Source: Acanthamoeba sp. SK_2022b (lineage: Eukaryota; Discosea; Longamoebia; Acanthamoebidae). From it: DNA of 64,000 nt. Location: positions 1 through 64,000 of the forward strand of contig JANDJZ010000077.1 of assembly GCA_027943245.1 (NCBI GenBank), read 5' to 3'. Under the pieces are notes generated by a model that saw only the letters and a program-made list of their open reading frames with translations, was not told the origin of the DNA and did not search any database. This document shows positions 4,814 through 57,163 of this stretch, one piece after another. Position 1 is the stretch's first letter. The number at the start of each line of letters is the position of its first letter. Both the position numbers and the translations under genes were made by a program.

Positions 4814-7800
4814 TCAATCGATGCGAACGTAGAGATCGACGCCAGACACTGCCGTGGTGGAGTCCACCGAGGTCTTGAGGTGGCCGTGCGAATTGAACCC
4901 GCGGCACACCGGGTCAACGAAGCACAGGTACATCAGCTGGCCGGTCGCCGTGGTCTGGGGCTGTCCACAAAACGAGCGAATGAGCCACTCCCCCACTTTG
5001 TGCCCTCTTCTGCAGTCGAGTGGGGGCCAGCAAGTACCTGAGGGTGAATGTCGTTGCCGGGCGCATCGGTGTCAGAGAGGCGATGGAAGTGTTGTCTGAT
5101 ATCCGAAGCGTCAGCGTAGCGGTTGTACAGCGTTTGGGCCAACTCCACTACGTTCCCCGCAGGCTGCAGGCAAATATGGAATAATGATAAGAAAATTAGT
5201 AAGAGAGCAAAATGGAGAAAAATAAAATAAAATAAAATAAAATAAGAACAAGGCGTACCTGCGAGGGAAAGGCGTTGGTTTGATTGTTCCAACGCTGCTC
5301 CCAAAGTAGCAAATCGGCGGTGTACTTGGTGGTGTTGATCACCGTGCCCTTGGTGACTGAGTCGAAGAGGTAGGCGAGGAATATCTGCCACCGCGGCTTG
5401 TAGTAGGTGCCCACCAGGCCCGCCCACTCCTTGCTCGCATAGTCGTTGATCTCCCCTGCGCCAACCATCACGCAATTTATATTTATAATTTTTTGTTGTT
5501 TTTAATTTATTTATTTATTTGGCAAATAGATGCGTGCGTGTACGTACCGCTTGGACCCCAGAGCGTGACCTGGTTGCGTGCGTTGAACTCGTAGAGTCGC
5601 TTCTCCTCTGCATTTGTCGCCCACGACCTCGCTCTCTCCGTCCTTGGAGAAGACAGCAACGACCAAACATAACATGTCACCCAATCGCTTGGTTGGTGGC
5701 ACTGACGCTTCGAAAAGAGCATACCACACGCCGAGCAGGTAGTTTTGGTTGGTGGCCAGGATGGCGTCGAGATCGCTCAGGATCTGGACCAGCGCGGCCC
5801 CGATGGCGCTGATCTGGTTGTGGGGGTCCTTGCGCGACGCGACGTACTGGTCGTAGGCCCCGTCCAGCAGGCCGTACACGTCGTGGAACAGATTGTCGAG
5901 CACCTTCACCCACACAACCACCAATTGTTTTTAATTAATTAAATAAATAAATAGATAAAATAAAAACGGTTGCACTGCAATGGAGGACACGTGCCTGTCT
6001 GGTGACGTCGACGAGGTCGTACTGCCAGGGCCCGTTGGGCGTGTCGGGATTGGGCAGCTCGTGTCGGCTCTGGAGCAGCAGGCGCCAGGCCTCCACGAGC
6101 ACGTCGGGGCGGTAGTGGTGGGCCCTGCTCTCGTGGCGGTTGGGCACGAACGTGTAGATGCTCCTGCGCAGACAACCGATGAGCCGCCATGACAACACGC
6201 ACCCGCACTCGTTGGGTTGTCGAGCGCGCACCGCATGATCATCGGGTTCTGGTAGGCGGATTGGTGCAGCAGGCGCCAGGCTTGCTTCGCGCTCGGGCTG
6301 GGCGGCCGAGTCGAGCGAGAGAGACACGGTCAGCGGCAGTCGCAGCCACATAAAGAGCCAACGTTGTACCTGTCAGCGCCGTAGCGGAAGCTCACGTAGC
6401 GGTCCAGCCAATCGTCCACCTCCACTGCCTCAGACCGCCAGCCCATCTCTGCCACAATGTTTCGCTGCGTGGTAAGAAAGCGGTCACACACACGCACACG
6501 CACACACACGTGCACACATGACTCGTCGCGCACTTGACGCGCGCACGCACCAGACATCAATTCATAGATGACCGGGTTCTGCTCGATGGCCTCCATCGTC
6601 AGGCCGGTGCCCACCTGGACGCCACACCGGGGGCCGTGACGTCAGCCAAGTGTCGACACAAAAGCACGCCGCGTGCACGCTGTGAGACACGTGCCATGGT
6701 GCTGCCCGGCGCCGCGAGGGCGTGCACCGGAGCGGTGGCGATGTGCGTGAGGTTGCCGTAGAGGTCGCGGTTGCCTCCGAAATCGTGAAGCATGCACCAC
6801 ACGAACGGCTTGCTGCAAAGGCCAGCGCCCCCGCCCACATCGAGCGCAGAGATCAGCAGACAACAGATGGGCGAGAGGGGCGAGAGGGCACCCTACCCAA
6901 AGTAGGAGTCGGTCTTGCTCCAGATGGGGTCCACCTCGGCGTAGAGGTCCAGAATGAGCATGTTGTGGTTCTCGACGCCCGACAAGTAGGCCTGGAAAGA
7001 GAGGGGGGGTGAGCCATGGGCGTTGGTTGGGGAGAAGAGGAGAGGGAGCACCTTGATGTTGTCGTTGCTCCACCACCTGCTCCGGAAGAGCCAGCCCTGC
7101 ATGAGCCACAGGGCCTTGGGGTCGGCCGTCGCCATGCCCTGATGGGGTAGACAACACGCGCGCACGAGTCAGCCAGAGACAAGAGAGTGGTCAGGCGAGG
7201 CGAGCGAGTGGGCCAGACCTGATAGACGGCGTTACTCGCGGCGGCGAGGTAGGCGGGATCGGCCGAAGGAGGGTCGAGCTCGTTGAACGTGTCGGCGTTG
7301 TAGATGTGATCGGTACCATACGCACGCGTCTGCGCCTCAATAAAAGCAGCCCTACGTTACGCAAAAAAAAATAATAATAAATAAATAAAAAATTACCCTT
7401 AAATAATTGGTTTAATACAAAATAATTGTGGCAGGTACCCGATCTTCTGGAAGATGGGGTCGAAAGGGTCCAGCAGCCACACGCGGTAGGCATCGCCAAA
7501 GTGGGCCCACGTGGGCGACAGGGTGATGTTGGCTCGCGGATAGACGCGCTTCAGCCCTGCGGGCACGTGGCCAGCGAACGCCGACAGCACGTTTTTCATT
7601 CCGAACTCGCGTTGCCGCTGTCCACGTCACCCAGCCACGTGCACGAGAGGAGGGTGGCGCCCCGACGCCAAACAGAGAACGCGTTCGTCAGCGCATTTCC
7701 CTAGCGAAGCGGCAGGTAGGCACGGGCAGGCGGGCAAGGCGTTGCACCTGCACGATCTTCTTCTGGAGCTCCGCCTGGCCTTCACGCCAGCTCTTGGTGA

Positions 7801-50941: not shown

Positions 50942-50976
50942 GGATACGGCCACACTGCGCAGAAAGCACCGCTTCC
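50942..50976 (+). rRNA. 5S rRNA 5' fragment, copy A (positions 1-35)
   Basis: It begins GGATACGGCCACACTGCGCA and continues GAAAGCACCGCTTCC. This is the first 35 nucleotides of a 5S rRNA gene, as judged by the matching remainder at 57065-57163. It is followed by one extra A and then by a second copy of the same segment. It is the genomic upstream half of a 5S gene split by a retrotransposon. Confidence 0.85.
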
Positions 50977-50977
50977 A

Positions 50978-51013
50978 GGATACGGCCATACTGCGCAGAG
51001 AGCACCGCTTCCC
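50978..51013 (+). rRNA. 5S rRNA 5' fragment, copy B (positions 1-36), abutting the retrotransposon
   Basis: It again starts exactly at the 5S first nucleotide (GGATACGGCCATACTGCGCA) and runs through GAGAGCACCGCTTCCC, where retrotransposon sequence begins with a run of A. It differs from copy A at three positions. Its last 16 nt repeat the start of the 3' fragment at 57065, with one mismatch. Confidence 0.85.
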
Positions 51014-51280
51014 AAAAAAAACTTCCCGCCGCGAACAAGGCCACAGCTCCTGCTCCCCCCCCTGAACTCGGGTACACCCAACTCAAGAGATGAAGTGCTA
51101 TTTTGTATGAAGCTTGGAACGGTCAATCCAAGGATAAAAAACAATGCCAGAAGACCTAGTCTTCCGCCAAAACCGCGCACAGACAGCATCATAATTAATC
51201 ATACAAAACACTCGCATCTTCTCTCAGAAAGATGGACAAGGACACACCCACACTCTCTACCCATAAGCGAAAGCACGGAG

Positions 51281-52537
51281 ATGAGCAGGAAGGCACCCGC
51301 ACCTCAAAAACCACCCGCCCCGAGTCCAAATGTAACCCCCCCCAAATCACCAAAAAATTACCTCTCCCCCCAATTAACAAGAAAAAACCCACCCCACCGC
51401 CCAGCCCAACGACCAAGCAAGAGACTCATTGCAACCGAAACCGATGAGGAGAACACCACCCCCAGACCCAGGCCAGGCCATGAAACGAACCCGATCCCAG
51501 TGCCCCAACCAACCCAAGATCCCAACTGTGGATGGGGCGCCAAATACGCACAAGGCTGGGGTCAGGACTCAACCCCCACTGGGACCAGCACCTACTCATC
51601 AATCGAAGCCATCATCAACAAAATTCATAACACTACCCCAAGCAAAGACATTGAACAGGAGATTGCCAACGTCCTCAACTCCTATGTAGAAGCCAAGAAC
51701 AAGTCCATGGAGAGGACAATGAAGGTATCGACGATCAAACTGGCAGTCCTCAGAGACGCAGTCATGAAGGCCAGAGGAGGCGGCACCCCCCAAGAAGAGG
51801 AAGACCCGACAGTCTCAGTTATAGTCGCTGAGAACGTCAAGGAGGACTGGAACGCAGTACGCGCCTTCTTCAACAACATCAGGGGACTCGACCTGGAGAA
51901 CACCGTCCTGTTCCCGCAGACGAACAAACGTGCAGCGATCATAGCCTTTGAATCAGAAGAACACTGCACCCGCGCCCTCGACAAGATCCACAATGCCAGG
52001 AAGGAATGGCACATCGTCTCCTCCATCCCCTCACTAAAACAATCTGACTGTGCCCTCGACACCCCCCACACGGCTTACATCTACGCCCCAGACCTCCCAC
52101 TAGAAGCTCTCAAGACAATTTCCCCCTCCCCCATCAAGTCGGCTAAAACAACCAACGGGTCCATCACAGTCTCGTTCTACAGGGCAGAAGACTCCGCCGC
52201 GTTCATCGCACTCCACTCCATTGAGACTCCCTTGGGACTGGTGAACATCTCCAACTCCTACATTGGAAAGACAGAATTCAAGCTGCGCCTGAAAGGCACC
52301 CCGAAGAAGTGGCGCTCCTCCAACCTCCACAACTTCCTCAAGTCCCAAGGAGTCATCTTCAAGGAGGCGGAAATCGCGAGAAGCCCATTGGATGGACAGA
52401 ACCTCTCCTACAGCTGGATCAAGTTCGACTCTGCCAAAGACATGGTCGAAGCCTCTAACAAGACCCTGATCACCATAACAGGAGAGAGACTAACGTGGGA
52501 AGAACCCAGAAAACGTGGAATTGGTCGTGGACATTAA
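51281..52537 (+). CDS. LINE ORF1 protein with RRM-like repeats
   Basis: The nucleic-acid-binding (chaperone) protein of the retrotransposon, about 418 residues from ATG 51281 (SRKAPAPQKPPAPSPNV). The same frame is open upstream through the 5S-derived leader, with earlier ATGs at 51107 and 50927. The N-terminal quarter is Pro/Lys-rich and disordered. Residues about 110-175 look helical (YSSIEAIINKIHN, IEQEIANVLNSYVEAKNKSM). The rest has three segments with RRM-like alternation: TVSVIVAENVKEDWNAVRAF, then AYIYAPDLPLEALKTI with SITVSFYRAEDSAAFIAL, and finally FKLRLKGTPKKWRSSNLHNF with YSWIKFDSAKDMVEAS. No CCHC knuckle is present, unlike many I/R1-type ORF1 proteins. Its stop (TAA 52535-52537) lies inside the start of ORF2. 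Confidence 0.75.
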   Translation: MSRKAPAPQKPPAPSPNVTPPKSPKNYLSPQLTRKNPPHRPAQRPSKRLIATETDEENTTPRPRPGHETNPIPVPQPTQDPNCGWGAKYAQGWGQDSTPTGTSTYSSIEAIINKIHNTTPSKDIEQEIANVLNSYVEAKNKSMERTMKVSTIKLAVLRDAVMKARGGGTPQEEEDPTVSVIVAENVKEDWNAVRAFFNNIRGLDLENTVLFPQTNKRAAIIAFESEEHCTRALDKIHNARKEWHIVSSIPSLKQSDCALDTPHTAYIYAPDLPLEALKTISPSPIKSAKTTNGSITVSFYRAEDSAAFIALHSIETPLGLVNISNSYIGKTEFKLRLKGTPKKWRSSNLHNFLKSQGVIFKEAEIARSPLDGQNLSYSWIKFDSAKDMVEASNKTLITITGERLTWEEPRKRGIGRGH

Positions 52538-55500
52538 TAACCCAACATCCACACTCCCACCAAACCCTCTCCTGACAGTCGGCACATTAAACATACGAGG
52601 GGGCCTCCCCCAAAAAATGGACCACATCATACACCACTTCAATAAAAAACAACTCGACATACTCATCCTCACAGAAACCAAGACCTTTCACGAAGAATGG
52701 AGCAGAATCACCCCATACGGCTTTACTGTCACTCACAACGCCCCCTCAATTACCCAAAAAACAAGACAAGGAGGGTTAGCAGCACTATACCGCAACAACA
52801 TCGCACACCTCATCACAACGGAACAGCTAAACCAAACCCACCACCAACACCTCCTCCACATCTCAATCAGGGCCAACAACACCCCTGCCATGCATATAAT
52901 AGGAGTCTACGCACCTCACAAAAACAGAAACTTCTTCAACAACACAGTCCTTCCTATCACAAAGAAGTTAACGGAGTCAAACCCAACTATACTTATAGGC
53001 GACTTCAACGCGTGTGCACACAAGATAGACAAGAAAAACCCAAAAGGCTACATAAGCCCACACTTAATAAACCTAATGGAAACATGCGCGCTAAAAGATG
53101 CCTTCCGAGCACTCCACCCAACAAAACAAACCTTCTCCTGGACCAGATCTGGAAAGAACGGCAGTATCCAAGCTACTAGGATAGACACTGCACTAATATC
53201 TCACCACATAACCCCGATCAACGCCTCATACTCACCCACGCTGGTCGACACAGACCACCTAGCCTTCACATGCAGCTGGAGAAGAAACAACTACAACCCC
53301 TTCACCCCAGTGACTTACCGCAGAGCATTCAAAAGCAGACTTACCCAAGAAGAGGCTATACTCTTCAATGAGCGGATCAGCAACTGCACCTACACTGACA
53401 TTAGAGACAGAATTGCAACAGCGGCGGCCGCCACCATCCCAACCCCCCCTCCTAACAAAGCACGTAAACTAAACAAAGAAACCGCTAAACTTGTCAAAAA
53501 GTATGGCAAGCTCACGCGAAGCATCCATAGACTTTTAGCCACAGGCTCCCTCAAGCCAAAAGAAAGAGCACTTTTCTCAAGTAACGACAACAACGAATGG
53601 CTCACCGAAGCAAAAACCTCACAGAAATCACTCCGAAGACAGATGCGCAAAGCAATCCGATCGCAAAATAAAATAAAAATAAACACAAACGTCATGAGAC
53701 AGCGCAGAGATGCCAACCTCACTAACCAACTCCACTTCAAGAGACTTAAATCACACCTACACCCAAGAACCAACTCCCTACCACTAAACGTGCTAAATGA
53801 GCACCACAAACTGGTCACAGACCCAAAGGTAATCAAAGACGTAACCCGCACCTTCTGGTGTAGCTTGTTCACCAAAGGCCCTGCCCCAACAACCCCTATC
53901 CCAAACTGTTACACTAAAGAACGCCCACGCCTAACCATTAAAGATAATGAACAGATAACCAGACCCATCACACTGCAAGAACTAAATGACACCCTCGCAA
54001 AGATAAAAACAGATTCAGCCCCAGGCCCAGATGAAATCAACAACGCAATGCTCAAAGCCCTCAATGACAGAAACCGAGCAGATCTCCTCTCTTTCCTCAA
54101 CTCAGCAATGACTGACCCTGCACTCCTGGACAACCTCAACAGCGCAAAAATCTGGACCATCCACAAGAGAAACGACAAAGCAAACCTAAACAACTACCGA
54201 CCCATAGCACTCTGCCAAACAATATACAAACTCCTAACACTAATAATCAATAAACGCCTCTACGAAGCAGTAGAACAGCACAACATCCTCTCCAAAGCCC
54301 AAGCAGCCTTTCGAAAAGGGAGGTCAACCCAACTACACATAATCACCCTCCGCAATCTGATTGAGGAAGCCCTCACACTGAACCGCCCACTCTTTGCACT
54401 CTTTGTCGACCTGGAAAAAGCATATGACTCCCTGCCACACAGAGCCATAACACTTACCCTTCGCTACTACGGCGCCTCCCCGACTCTCCAAGAACTAATA
54501 AACAAATTGTACGACAATGCAAACACCACGGTGTGCACCCGCTATGGTGACACAGCCCCCTTCCCAACGGACAAAGGAGTCAAACAAGGAGACCCTTTAT
54601 CCCCTCTCCTCTGGAACCTATTCATCAACCCAGTAGTAGAACAGCTCCTACACACCCGCTCTGCTCACTCAACATCGCAAGGGGAAAAAATAGGCAACAT
54701 GGCCTTCGCAGACGACCTCACCATACTCAGCAGCTCTGGTGCCGACCTAGCCGAATCGCTGGCACTCTTCCAAAACTTCTGCAACTACCACAGACTCCAA
54801 ATTAGCCCCAGTAAGTCCATCATTGCAACCACCTCACTAGAAACCCTGTCCCTAGCAGTAGACACCCCAACAGGACCCCAACTCATACCCAACCTAGAAA
54901 AGAACAAAAGCGTCAAATACCTAGGCGCCCACATCCGGTTTGACCGACGCAAACCCGATGAACACTCCCTCACAAAGGAGTTTATAAAGAAAGCAAACTT
55001 CATCTCATCAAAAAGGATGAGCGCAGAAGCCAAAGCACACTTCCTGAACACATATGCCTTCCCAACCATCCTCTACGACACCCCGTCTCGTCCCCTCACT
55101 AAAAAAGCAGCAAACAATATAGACTGCGCGGCACGCAGAGTTATAATAAATGAACTGCACATCCGCAGCTGGTATGACAAAAACATTATGTACAGCCCAG
55201 ATGGGACGGGCCTCTCGCTTACTGAATTGAGCACAGCCCAACGATGGACTGCCCTATCCACCCTAACTACCATCTTCAATGGACCGGACTCACTAGCGCA
55301 GACCACAACGGCAAACAACCTAGCACTCTACCAAGACAAATCGCCAGACTTCCCCTTCCATGGCAAACCAATCTTGCGCCGAAACCTCCCCACCATAGCC
55401 GCCTTTATAGCAGCAGCTATAGAATGCGAGGTCCAAGTAATTTTCCCACACTTAGCACACCCAAACAACACCCACATGCAACCAACCCAACCCCCGCCGA

Positions 55501-56144
55501 TCCCACCCACGGCCCACACGTTAGACGTCTTCACCGATGGGTCTTTGAAAAATAGAGCAGCGGGTAGTGGTGTGGTCTTTCACTCCCACCCAAAGCCAAT
55601 CATACTAACCCACAGAACCCCTAGGGAACAATCAAATAACAACGCCGAGCTACACAGCATAGAAATTGCCCTGAAACACACGCCACTCGGCACCCCAGAA
55701 ATCAGGATCTTTATGGACAGCCAATACGCCATAAAAACGGCACAAAACTGCCTAAAAGACTCCCCAGACATACACCACCTCACCCCAAATAGAGAGACCA
55801 TCCTCAACATACGCAACCTAGCTAGCAAACACAACAAAATCACCTTCCACCACATCTACAGCCACGTCACCAAGAAGCTCAGCACTGATCCCAATAAATG
55901 GCAACCAAAGATCGAGGCGCAAAAAACAAACCTCCCCCTACACTACCCCACCGCCTGCAAACTTAACAACCTAGCTGATGAGGCGGCAAGAAAAGGCGCA
56001 GACCTCCCGCCACCCCCCTCAGCCTACGCCCGAGAAAGGGTGATCGTCCAAGACGGCTTCTCCTCCTCCCCAATCCCCAGACGGATCCTCCTACACAAAT
56101 GGAAGGACCAATGGGACAGACCCCCCCCAGGAACCCCCAAGTGA
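52494..56144 (+). CDS. LINE ORF2: AP-endonuclease, reverse transcriptase, RNase H
   Basis: The open frame runs from just after a TAA at 52491 to a TGA at 56142. No ATG precedes the endonuclease; the first in-frame ATG is about 52617, already inside that domain. Counting from 52515, the endonuclease has Asn in LNIRGG (about 26), Glu in LTETKT (55), GDFNA (160), RIDTAL (221) and DTDHLAF (245). The reverse transcriptase has YRPIAL (560), AFRKGRSTQ, FVDLEKAYDS (631), GVKQGDPLSPLLW (688), FADD (730) and KYLGAHIRF. RNase H has FTDGS (1005), NNAELHS (1042), MDSQYAI (1066) and LADEAAR (1153), so all acidic catalytic positions are kept. The frame continues past the TGA into a zinc-finger segment. ORF2 is +1 relative to ORF1 and overlaps it by 44 nt. 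Confidence 0.88.
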   Translation, partial: RGKNPENVELVVDINNPTSTLPPNPLLTVGTLNIRGGLPQKMDHIIHHFNKKQLDILILTETKTFHEEWSRITPYGFTVTHNAPSITQKTRQGGLAALYRNNIAHLITTEQLNQTHHQHLLHISIRANNTPAMHIIGVYAPHKNRNFFNNTVLPITKKLTESNPTILIGDFNACAHKIDKKNPKGYISPHLINLMETCALKDAFRALHPTKQTFSWTRSGKNGSIQATRIDTALISHHITPINASYSPTLVDTDHLAFTCSWRRNNYNPFTPVTYRRAFKSRLTQEEAILFNERISNCTYTDIRDRIATAAAATIPTPPPNKARKLNKETAKLVKKYGKLTRSIHRLLATGSLKPKERALFSSNDNNEWLTEAKTSQKSLRRQMRKAIRSQNKIKINTNVMRQRRDANLTNQLHFKRLKSHLHPRTNSLPLNVLNEHHKLVTDPKVIKDVTRTFWCSLFTKGPAPTTPIPNCYTKERPRLTIKDNEQITRPITLQELNDTLAKIKTDSAPGPDEINNAMLKALNDRNRADLLSFLNSAMTDPALLDNLNSAKIWTIHKRNDKANLNNYRPIALCQTIYKLLTLIINKRLYEAVEQHNILSKAQAAFRKGRSTQLHIITLRNLIEEALTLNRPLFALFVDLEKAYDSLPHRAITLTLRYYGASPTLQELINKLYDNANTTVCTRYGDTAPFPTDKGVKQGDPLSPLLWNLFINPVVEQLLHTRSAHSTSQGEKIGNMAFADDLTILSSSGADLAESLALFQNFCNYHRLQISPSKSIIATTSLETLSLAVDTPTGPQLIPNLEKNKSVKYLGAHIRFDRRKPDEHSLTKEFIKKANFISSKRMSAEAKAHFLNTYAFPTILYDTPSRPLTKKAANNIDCAARRVIINELHIRSWYDKNIMYSPDGTGLSLTELSTAQRWTALSTLTTIFNGPDSLAQTTTANNLALYQDKSPDFPFHGKPILRRNLPTIAAFIAAAIECEVQVIFPHLAHPNNTHMQPTQPPPIPPTAHTLDVFTDGSLKNRAAGSGVVFHSHPKPIILTHRTPREQSNNNAELHSIEIALKHTPLGTPEIRIFMDSQYAIKTAQNCLKDSPDIHHLTPNRETILNIRNLASKHNKITFHHIYSHVTKKLSTDPNKWQPKIEAQKTNLPLHYPTACKLNNLADEAARKGADLPPPPSAYARERVIVQDGFSSSPIPRRILLHKWKDQWDRPPPGTPK

Positions 56145-56738
56145 AAAGCCCTAGCCAGCCACCCTGACATGGCCCTTTATGGCTTCTTACTTAGAGCCAC
56201 TAAAAATCTCCTCCCCCTTCGAGCCAACCTTCACCAAACCTCCTCCAACCCAGCGCACGCAACCCCCACCTGCATCTGGTGCGAACACAACAACCAGGGA
56301 CACAAACTGGAAGACCTGGACCATGTCCTAGCCTCCTGCCCAGCACACGAGACTACACGACGTGAAGCACAAACGTCTCTAAACACCATCACAAAAAAAC
56401 TGGACACTATCCCCCTTATCCCCACCGCCTCAGCTACAGACTGGCTGGGCATACAACATACCCCAAAAGGACACTCCGACAGCCACTACAAGACCTTCCA
56501 CGCCATCCAGGCCACACTCCTCGCCACAAGCCACCGCATCTGGATCGATCGGTGCCTCTACCTGAACGCCTTGGGCCTCACATGCTCTGCGCAGCGCAAG
56601 ACAGCCCCTCCCGCCCCAGCAACAGCTGGGGTCGGAAAGGCTAGCGCATCGACAGGTGCAGGGACCCATGACGCAGACCAGGACCACCGCCGACCGAACC
56701 CAGCCCGACCAACCGATGACGTGACACCTGATGACTGA
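56145..56738 (+). pseudogene. C-terminal zinc-finger part of LINE ORF2, cut off by an in-frame TGA
   Basis: The same reading frame as ORF2 resumes directly after TGA 56142-56144: KALASHPDMALYGFLLRATK, then a C-x2-C...H...C...H pattern (CIWCEHNNQGHKLEDLDHVL, ASCPAH). This is the usual C-terminal finger of APE-type LINEs with RNase H. It continues TSHRIWIDRCLYLN and ends in a Pro/Ala/Asp-rich tail at 56738. There is an in-frame ATG at 56169, but as a separate small protein it makes little sense. It is more likely the detached end of ORF2, lost by a single nonsense mutation (CGA or similar to TGA) or reached by readthrough. Confidence 0.75.
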
Positions 56739-56837
56739 CCACGACAAGCCAACACAGCCAACACACCAACCCCGACCTTCACTGAGACTGCAGACCCGAC
56801 CGACCAACCCAACCACCCTTCCTGGGCGCACTCTTTT

Positions 56838-56863
56838 CCCCTCTCAAGCTGAGAGGGGTTTTT
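56838..56863 (+). other. Perfect 9-bp hairpin plus T-run in LINE 3' UTR
   Basis: CCCCTCTCA-AGC-TGAGAGGGG is followed directly by TTTTT. In shape it resembles a bacterial intrinsic terminator, but here it lies 100 bp downstream of the last LINE codon. It may be a 3' structure recognised by the element's reverse transcriptase, or a Pol III stop. Confidence 0.8.
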
Positions 56864-56915
56864 AACGAGGCGCCCCACCGACGCAGACACCACACAAGCA
56901 GAGACGAAAACTTTC

Positions 56916-56931
56916 CCCTCCTGCAGGAGGG
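56916..56931. other. 16-bp perfect palindrome in LINE 3' UTR
   Basis: CCCTCCTGCAGGAGGG is self-complementary and lies 53 bp after the T-run hairpin. Together they give the 3' UTR two stable stems, a common feature of LINE RNAs that are recognised by structure rather than by a poly(A) tail. Confidence 0.8.
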
Positions 56932-57064
56932 ACGGTGACCAGCTCCCAGCCGAATCCAAGGACCAGAGTGAGAGACTGCCATCACCACAGTGGGGGCTAC
57001 CGGGCTAACGCTAGAGGCCGCACAGGCACACGGTTAACCACTTTAACGACCATTACATGAACAT

Positions 57065-57163
57065 GAAAGCACCGCTTCCCATCCGAACAGCGAAGTTAAG
57101 CTGCGCCAGGCGGTGTTAGTACTGGGGTGGGCGACCACCCGGGAATCCACCGTGCCGTATCCT
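57065..57163 (+). rRNA. 5S rRNA 3' fragment (positions 21 to end), downstream of the insertion
   Basis: It starts GAAAGCACCGCTTCCCATCC and ends CACCGTGCCGTATCCT. It contains the whole internal control region and the 3' strand of the terminal helix (GTATCC pairs with GGATAC at the 5' fragments). Positions 1-20 plus these 99 nt give 119 nt, a normal 5S length. A TTTT run (57169-57172) follows as a Pol III terminator. The gene cannot yield normal 5S RNA because of the 6-kb interruption. Confidence 0.92.

Follow-up and report, generated by a model that had tools for sequence, protein, structure and literature searches.

A family of long interspersed elements (LINEs) of Acanthamoeba almost certainly inserts at a single site of the 5S ribosomal RNA (rRNA) gene, in sense orientation, and the element studied here is one of its copies. 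We analyzed a stretch of 64,000 nucleotides of Acanthamoeba sp. SK_2022b (contig JANDJZ010000077.1, positions 1 to 64,000 of the forward strand; hereafter the window, which lies in contig C913), in which a LINE of about 6.05 kb sits in sense orientation in a 5S rRNA gene (50942–57163). The insertion site and its orientation, the target duplication, the recurrence of both in other copies, the domain content of the element, and the selection on its second open reading frame (ORF2) could be read directly from the assembly.

The 5S target site and the copies of the family

The preliminary description, which had been made from the letters of the window, proposed a LINE inserted in sense orientation within a 5S gene, and this was borne out by an Rfam match, by the identity of the right-hand 5S piece to the intact gene (98/98), and by an exact duplication (15/15). 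The Rfam 5S rRNA match covered 57042–57163 (66.6 bits against a cut-off of 38), although true 5S sequence within it is confined to 57065–57162, representing bases 21–118 of the gene. On the left side, two 5S leaders stand in tandem, separated by a single A (50977). The outer block (50942–50976) has a CCACAC variant, which several uninterrupted 5S sites also have, and the inner block (50978–51013) reads GAGAGC where GAAAGC is expected. Over the duplication, the right side agrees with the outer block at every base (15/15) and with the inner block at all but one (14/15); hence the outer block is the target, and the inner block was probably brought along by the element from a donor site.

50942–50976, + strand: 5′ part of the target 5S rRNA gene, bases 1–35 (97% over 35 nt, one substitution)
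50962–50976, + strand: left target-site duplication GAAAGCACCGCTTCC, 5S bases 21–35 (15/15 against 57065–57079)
50977–51013, + strand: single A and second 5S leader (50978–51013, bases 1–36, GAGAGC variant; duplication match 14/15 only)
51014–57064, + strand: LINE body, a non-long terminal repeat (non-LTR) retrotransposon (12 family loci in the assembly)
57065–57162, + strand: 3′ part of the target 5S rRNA gene, bases 21–118, its first 15 bases being the right target-site duplication (98/98 identical)

Most simply, the inserted segment would comprise 50977–57064, of which 51014–57064 is the LINE body. The element had been placed at 51014–57064, which holds for the body and not for the whole insert; likewise, a right flank beginning at 5S base 21 had been recognized correctly, but the left flank, taken as a single 5S piece of bases 1–36, concealed the second leader, and the target block comprises bases 1–35. 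The duplication may be read as 14 or 15 bp long, as the first G of its right copy may equally be the last base of the element.

The assembly was searched as a whole (44.9 Mb, 1129 contigs), and family loci were gathered by a protein search and by searches with the end sequences of the element, in which all candidates were scored (11/11 and 10/10). An ADF/cofilin exon of this assembly agrees with actophorin (PDB 1ahq) at 72 of 76 residues, with the differences counted by eye; as actophorin is an Acanthamoeba protein, the genome most likely belongs to an Acanthamoeba. Twelve family loci were obtained (C913, C647, C80, C924, C878, C660, C539, C351b, C419, C721, C385, and C351a), the other 11 being 94–97% identical in nucleotides to the window copy in long aligned pieces. 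C721 and C385 lack the 3′ end at a contig edge, and C419 and C351b lack the 5′ end. All 10 assessable 3′ ends continue into 5S, nine of them at base 21 with the common junction ...CATGAACAT joined to GAAAGCACC; on the 3′ side of C924, a deletion extends from the 3′ untranslated region (UTR) into 5S, which resumes at base 54. At the other end, nine of the 10 assessable copies adjoin 5S, at base 34 in C660 and at base 35 in the remaining eight. It had been set beforehand that, in a specific family, most copies should lie between 5S bases 20 and 36, and the flanks agree with this (3′, 10/10 in 5S; 5′, 9/10). Most copies lie at one base of one multicopy RNA gene, as is characteristic of a target-specific LINE; by arithmetic, the 117 5S sites found in 45 Mb would receive about 2.6 such-base hits per million random insertions.

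The outer flanks were then compared among the copies. Eight of the nine left flanks are distinct, C80 and C924 being identical over 200/200 bases, and among 10 right flanks no pair exceeds short or weak similarity (longest, C660/C924, 78% over 100 nt). Since the outer flanks differ between copies, the insertion events are mostly independent, and because both junctions recur in copies having unrelated outer flanks, the LINE-in-5S junctions are unlikely to be an assembly artefact and are not due to chance. An empty-site paralogue of the window copy was not found in the assembly, where the left flank had one other match (35 bases) and the right flank none. In addition, an older copy, C351c, with 68–73% nucleotide identity (75% at the 3′ end), is joined to 5S at base 21, and its 5S half has decayed to 86%. 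Because this diverged copy joins the same base, the 5S specificity is not recent.

The 5S genes were also examined from the target side. A pattern of 5S bases 24–57 (up to 3 mismatches) had 117 matches in the assembly and its reversed control 0; a pattern spanning the target (bases 9–48, up to 3 mismatches) had 100 matches, representing uninterrupted sites. With 12 occupied sites, occupancy is about a tenth. A scan of 5S genes for interrupted copies, suggested earlier and run here in the assembly, supported the family: exact 5S 3′ halves with any base but A before them occur at nine places, and exact 5′ halves with any base but C after them at seven; all belong to this LINE family. C660 and C539 are not among the seven because their junction or 5S letters differ. 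Among these exact interrupted halves, which cannot reveal inserts with a terminal A or an initial C, no other insertion in a 5S gene was found. Neither list includes the exact 3′ halves at C346:26677 and C436:12892 (L086 and L087), two 5S genes without roughly their first 15 bases. We rejected them as interrupted genes, as they look otherwise intact and have lost only their starting bases; they are possibly scars of failed insertions.

Several points weigh against this reading of the family. The evidence comes from one assembly and from sequence only, the protein search scored 38 of 105 candidates, so that fragments elsewhere could be missed, and the places considered for the bases 24–57 pattern are the first 100 of the 117. 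The 5′-truncated copy C351a is joined on its 5′ side to an inverted older copy instead of 5S. C80 (L003, L073) and C924 (L004, L074) have the same left flank and different right flanks. Either these two are not independent insertions or one of them is rearranged; the cause may be an error of assembly or ectopic recombination among copies, C924 also being without the 3′ junction. Finally, in the ORF2 columns compared, in which stops and not frameshifts were counted, a premature TGA is present in nine of the 12 loci, including the window copy.

Alternative readings, insertion mechanism, and the extra 5S leader

The 5S pieces might belong to the element itself, as in Cassandra or 5S-derived short interspersed elements, and be carried along by random insertion, and the additional 5S leader of the window copy is indeed compatible with the element side of the junction. 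However, the duplication lies inside the 5S gene (bases 21–35), and because of this we rejected a randomly inserting 5S carrier, which is extremely unlikely. The downstream piece also reaches the normal 5S 3′ end and then T-rich flanks that differ per copy, a layout in which intact 5S genes read as well, and the target 5′ piece varies among copies (CCATAC or CCACAC) as it does in uninterrupted genes. It is likewise improbable that the family lacks sequence specificity and is steered by transcription factors to RNA polymerase III genes, like TRE5-A of Dictyostelium. Acanthamoeba and Dictyostelium are both Amoebozoa, and TRE5-A is an amoebozoan LINE that is able to use a 5S gene; it inserts 37–41 bp upstream of the gene, and mainly at tRNA genes (PMC5391098). 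In contrast, the present site lies inside the gene and is fixed to the base (3′ at 21 in 9/10; 5′ at 34/35 in 9/10), which is the pattern of direct DNA recognition, and in the end-sequence searches, the 5′ side of C351a was the only family end that lay at a locus of a different kind. TRE-like elements have reportedly not been identified in Acanthamoeba castellanii (PMC5006619).

Direct recognition of the 5S gene by the element remains the preferred reading, and we infer the order of the nicks, the priming, the start of the element RNA, and the loss of 5S function. By analogy with target-primed reverse transcription, as known from LINEs, the element endonuclease would nick the bottom strand of 5S between bases 20 and 21, and the freed 3′ end (...GTGCTTTC-3′) would prime reverse transcription at the fixed, non-polyadenylated 3′ end of the element RNA. 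The top strand would be cut after base 35, which would yield the 15-bp duplication of bases 21–35. Insertion cuts the 5S start site off from the rest of the gene, and that 5S copy should be inactivated; the host would tolerate this loss because it still has about 100 dispersed 5S sites that are uninterrupted. At least some element RNAs would start in the upstream 5S piece, with the parent of the window copy apparently starting at 5S base +1.

Extra bases are present at four of the nine readable 5′ junctions, namely 37 nt in the window copy (A plus 5S bases 1–36), GGCTTCC in C385, GTTTCC in C647, and ATCC in C878, and a full-length 5S leader was not found in the eight other copies with a readable 5′ junction. 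The GAGAGC variant of the inner leader also occurs in another 5S site, C829. On the simplest reading, the parent RNA of the window copy would have begun at the start site of its donor 5S gene, and this hint of a 5S leader is the most novel part of the finding. Alternatively, a template jump to a fragment of 5S rRNA, a later rearrangement, or gene conversion could have produced the inner leader, a real if somewhat doubtful possibility. Consistent with it, one of the nine readable junctions alone has the full leader, and the 4–7 extra bases at the three others could be template-jump microhomology. Conversely, the inner block starts exactly at 5S base 1 and stops at the normal junction, its GAGAGC variant is absent from the target's own duplication and present in the C829 site, and a jump onto mature 5S rRNA would copy from the 3′ end of that RNA and not from base 36.

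Element anatomy, relatives, and known target-specific LINEs

The element is an apurinic-like endonuclease (APE)-type non-LTR retrotransposon with RNase H: it has the expected domains, a target duplication, and a 5′-truncated copy (C351a), and of 40 direct-repeat families, the 20 largest contained 5S pieces only and no LTR.

51014–51106, + strand: 5′ UTR, short, with an A run at its start
51107–52537, + strand: ORF1, 476 aa, with a weak RRM-like stretch (RRM_1, E=0.0017, under the curated cut-off)
52494–56738, + strand: ORF2 frame, with an in-frame TGA at 56142–56144 in the window copy
52581–53258, + strand: apurinic-like endonuclease domain (Pfam PF03372, E=1.3e-13)
54165–54935, + strand: reverse transcriptase (RT) domain (Pfam PF00078, E=6.7e-36)
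55524–55874, + strand: RNase H domain (Pfam PF00075, E=4.6e-13)
56271–56339, + strand: C-terminal CCHC-like motif, past the TGA of the window copy (by eye from the translation)
56739–57064, + strand: 3′ UTR without poly(A), with a fixed end ...CATTACATGAACAT (terminal bases identical in nine copies)

Among the copies checked, ORF1 is open at 476 aa in four, the window copy and three others; its predicted structure was of low confidence (mean predicted local distance difference test score 35.9) and was not used. ORF2 runs from about 52515; its frame opens at 52494, is +1 to that of ORF1, and overlaps the end of ORF1. Given this overlap and the absence of an ATG ahead of the endonuclease motif (52494–52617), coupled translation (reinitiation) or frameshifting is suggested for ORF2. 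The RT sequence matches R2 and L1 ORF2 structures, with R2 chains being the best sequence matches in PDB. The TGA at 56142 ends ORF2 of the window copy ahead of the CCHC-like motif, at which a Pfam search of ORF2 gave no match, and other copies are open there. In the 3′ UTR, a stretch of 36 nt at 56855–56888 is 83% common with a sister family, and the predicted fold was unremarkable (z −1.55).

This sister family (C932/C427; L013, L021) is the nearest in the assembly, the C932 ORF2 being 34% identical in amino acids and its RT region 43–45%. No 5S was found in the pieces of its two copies examined, and both end at unrelated DNA; C932 is flanked on both sides by a 16-bp duplication, TTGCACATCAAAAGAA, read from the printed letters. 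Because both copies end in this way, site preference differs between the sister families. In databases, ORF2 has at least 21 relatives among the best 7991 candidates scored, the closest protein among the matches listed being P0001 (37%), from a 3151-base contig labelled as a bacterial metagenome-assembled genome, which is probably misbinned eukaryotic DNA. Two distant matches were obtained in genome_contigs (L081, L082), and a search of viral_contigs returned no relatives. In an RT tree of 39 rows, built without curated clade references and with one row (L015) mixing two copies, the element groups with the sister family and P0001 (support 0.824).

To our knowledge, base-exact 5S-specific LINEs are known only from fish. 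Mutsu belongs to the Tx1 group of the L1 clade and is not known to have RNase H. This zebrafish LINE measures about 5.5 kb, has two ORFs, and targets 5S rRNA genes (PMC11202950; PMC3706591). The present element shares this target and lies in an Acanthamoeba, and it would also differ from Mutsu by its RNase H. The endonuclease of R2 is restriction-like, as is that of NeSL-1_ACa/Utopia, whereas that of the present element is apurinic-like. R1 and R2 each insert at a fixed point of a multicopy rRNA gene (PMC3706591), and target-primed reverse transcription has R2 as its model (PMC3747384). The present element resembles both in having such a fixed point, and R2 also in its RT, but their site lies in the 28S rRNA gene and not in 5S. 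The likeness to R1, R2, and Mutsu drawn in the preliminary description thus extends to behavior, an exact target in a multicopy RNA gene, and not to membership. NeSL-1_ACa/Utopia, a LINE of the U2 small nuclear RNA gene of A. castellanii (PMC4640811), is also target-specific in an Acanthamoeba, although its target is not 5S. Jockey-like LINEs of Tribolium freemani are associated with 5S arrays, but there 5S/satellite arrays are interrupted, some copies lie elsewhere, and the Results section of that study gives no base-exact site (PMC11202950). Dada-5S, similarly inserted in 5S rRNA genes, is a DNA transposon (PMC8869645).

In the literature surveyed by titles and the beginnings of abstracts, which did not cover the 2009 Repbase report on Acanthamoeba LINEs, no 5S-specific LINE of Acanthamoeba was recognized. 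The novelty first proposed holds for the lineage and the host and not for the idea of 5S-targeting LINEs, already known from Mutsu: the family is a real, target-specific one of 5S genes, whose way of life is known but whose lineage and host are new. As a tentative reading that we consider possible, an RNase H–bearing LINE lineage of Acanthamoeba may have gained strict 5S specificity independently of Mutsu and kept it until copies had diverged to about 70%; its full-length RNAs may begin at 5S +1, so that the target would be a landing site and also supply the promoter, and the 5S leader could be transferred to the next target. If a second, RNase H–bearing 5S lineage does exist in an amoeba, the safe-haven strategy would have evolved more than once.

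The 5S sites are dispersed over many contigs of the assembly, and insertions can therefore be distinguished by their flanks; because of this, insertion history, donor–target tracing, and decay after insertion become directly readable. The sister family without a 5S target in the same genome offers a natural comparison for how an endonuclease gains a target, and an APE-type enzyme whose footprint in a multicopy gene measures 15 bp could be of interest for targeted insertion.

Age, selection, and decay of copies

Eleven copies fall into two subfamilies, with about 95–97% nucleotide identity between subfamilies, and C351a is about 94–95% identical to both. The ratio of nonsynonymous to synonymous substitution rates (dN/dS) of ORF2, computed with stop codons skipped and indels ignored, was 0.13–0.23 between subfamilies in all pairs with more than 2500 common columns; among close pairs, some gave 0.74–0.80 and others values near 0.3. 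Since dN/dS is low between subfamilies and reaches 0.80 in close pairs, these values fit functional master lineages whose copies decay after insertion.

Individual copies show further rearrangements. At C351:28647–31716 (L015, L069, L071), two 5′-truncated copies of unlike age lie head to head, each flanked on its outer side by a 5S 3′ half. C878 and C385 (L005, L010) have different left flanks and a common internal deletion of ~470 bases where ORF1 meets ORF2, as might result if a copy already deleted had been propagated by an enzyme acting in trans. In C660 (L006, near 4979–5020), an inverted 5S fragment of bases 2–43 immediately precedes the interrupted 5S gene.

Among the interrupted 5S 3′ halves (L061–L070), 7 of 10 differ from the intact gene. 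Six of these halves carry 12 substitutions, 7 of which are CpG transitions, and the C351a half has an insertion only. Readings of the intact 5S gene were identical in 35 of 36 cases, in a biased and partly double-counted set of 30 partly overlapping best-Rfam loci. Changes confined to single copies were counted over the ORF2 columns (window 52515–56738) in 13 sequences from 12 loci, C539 being in two pieces and counted twice. At CpG, with C and G pooled, C-to-T changes amounted to 0.123 and G-to-A changes to 0.099 per position, and outside CpG to 0.012 and 0.037, respectively. All premature stops in the column alignment are TGA, although the protein search shows one TAA in a C419 piece. Since CpG transitions are in excess and the premature stops are TGA, these counts suggest that the copies are CpG-methylated. 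In A. castellanii Neff, methylation is mainly at CpG and is enriched on young transposable elements (PMC12344493).

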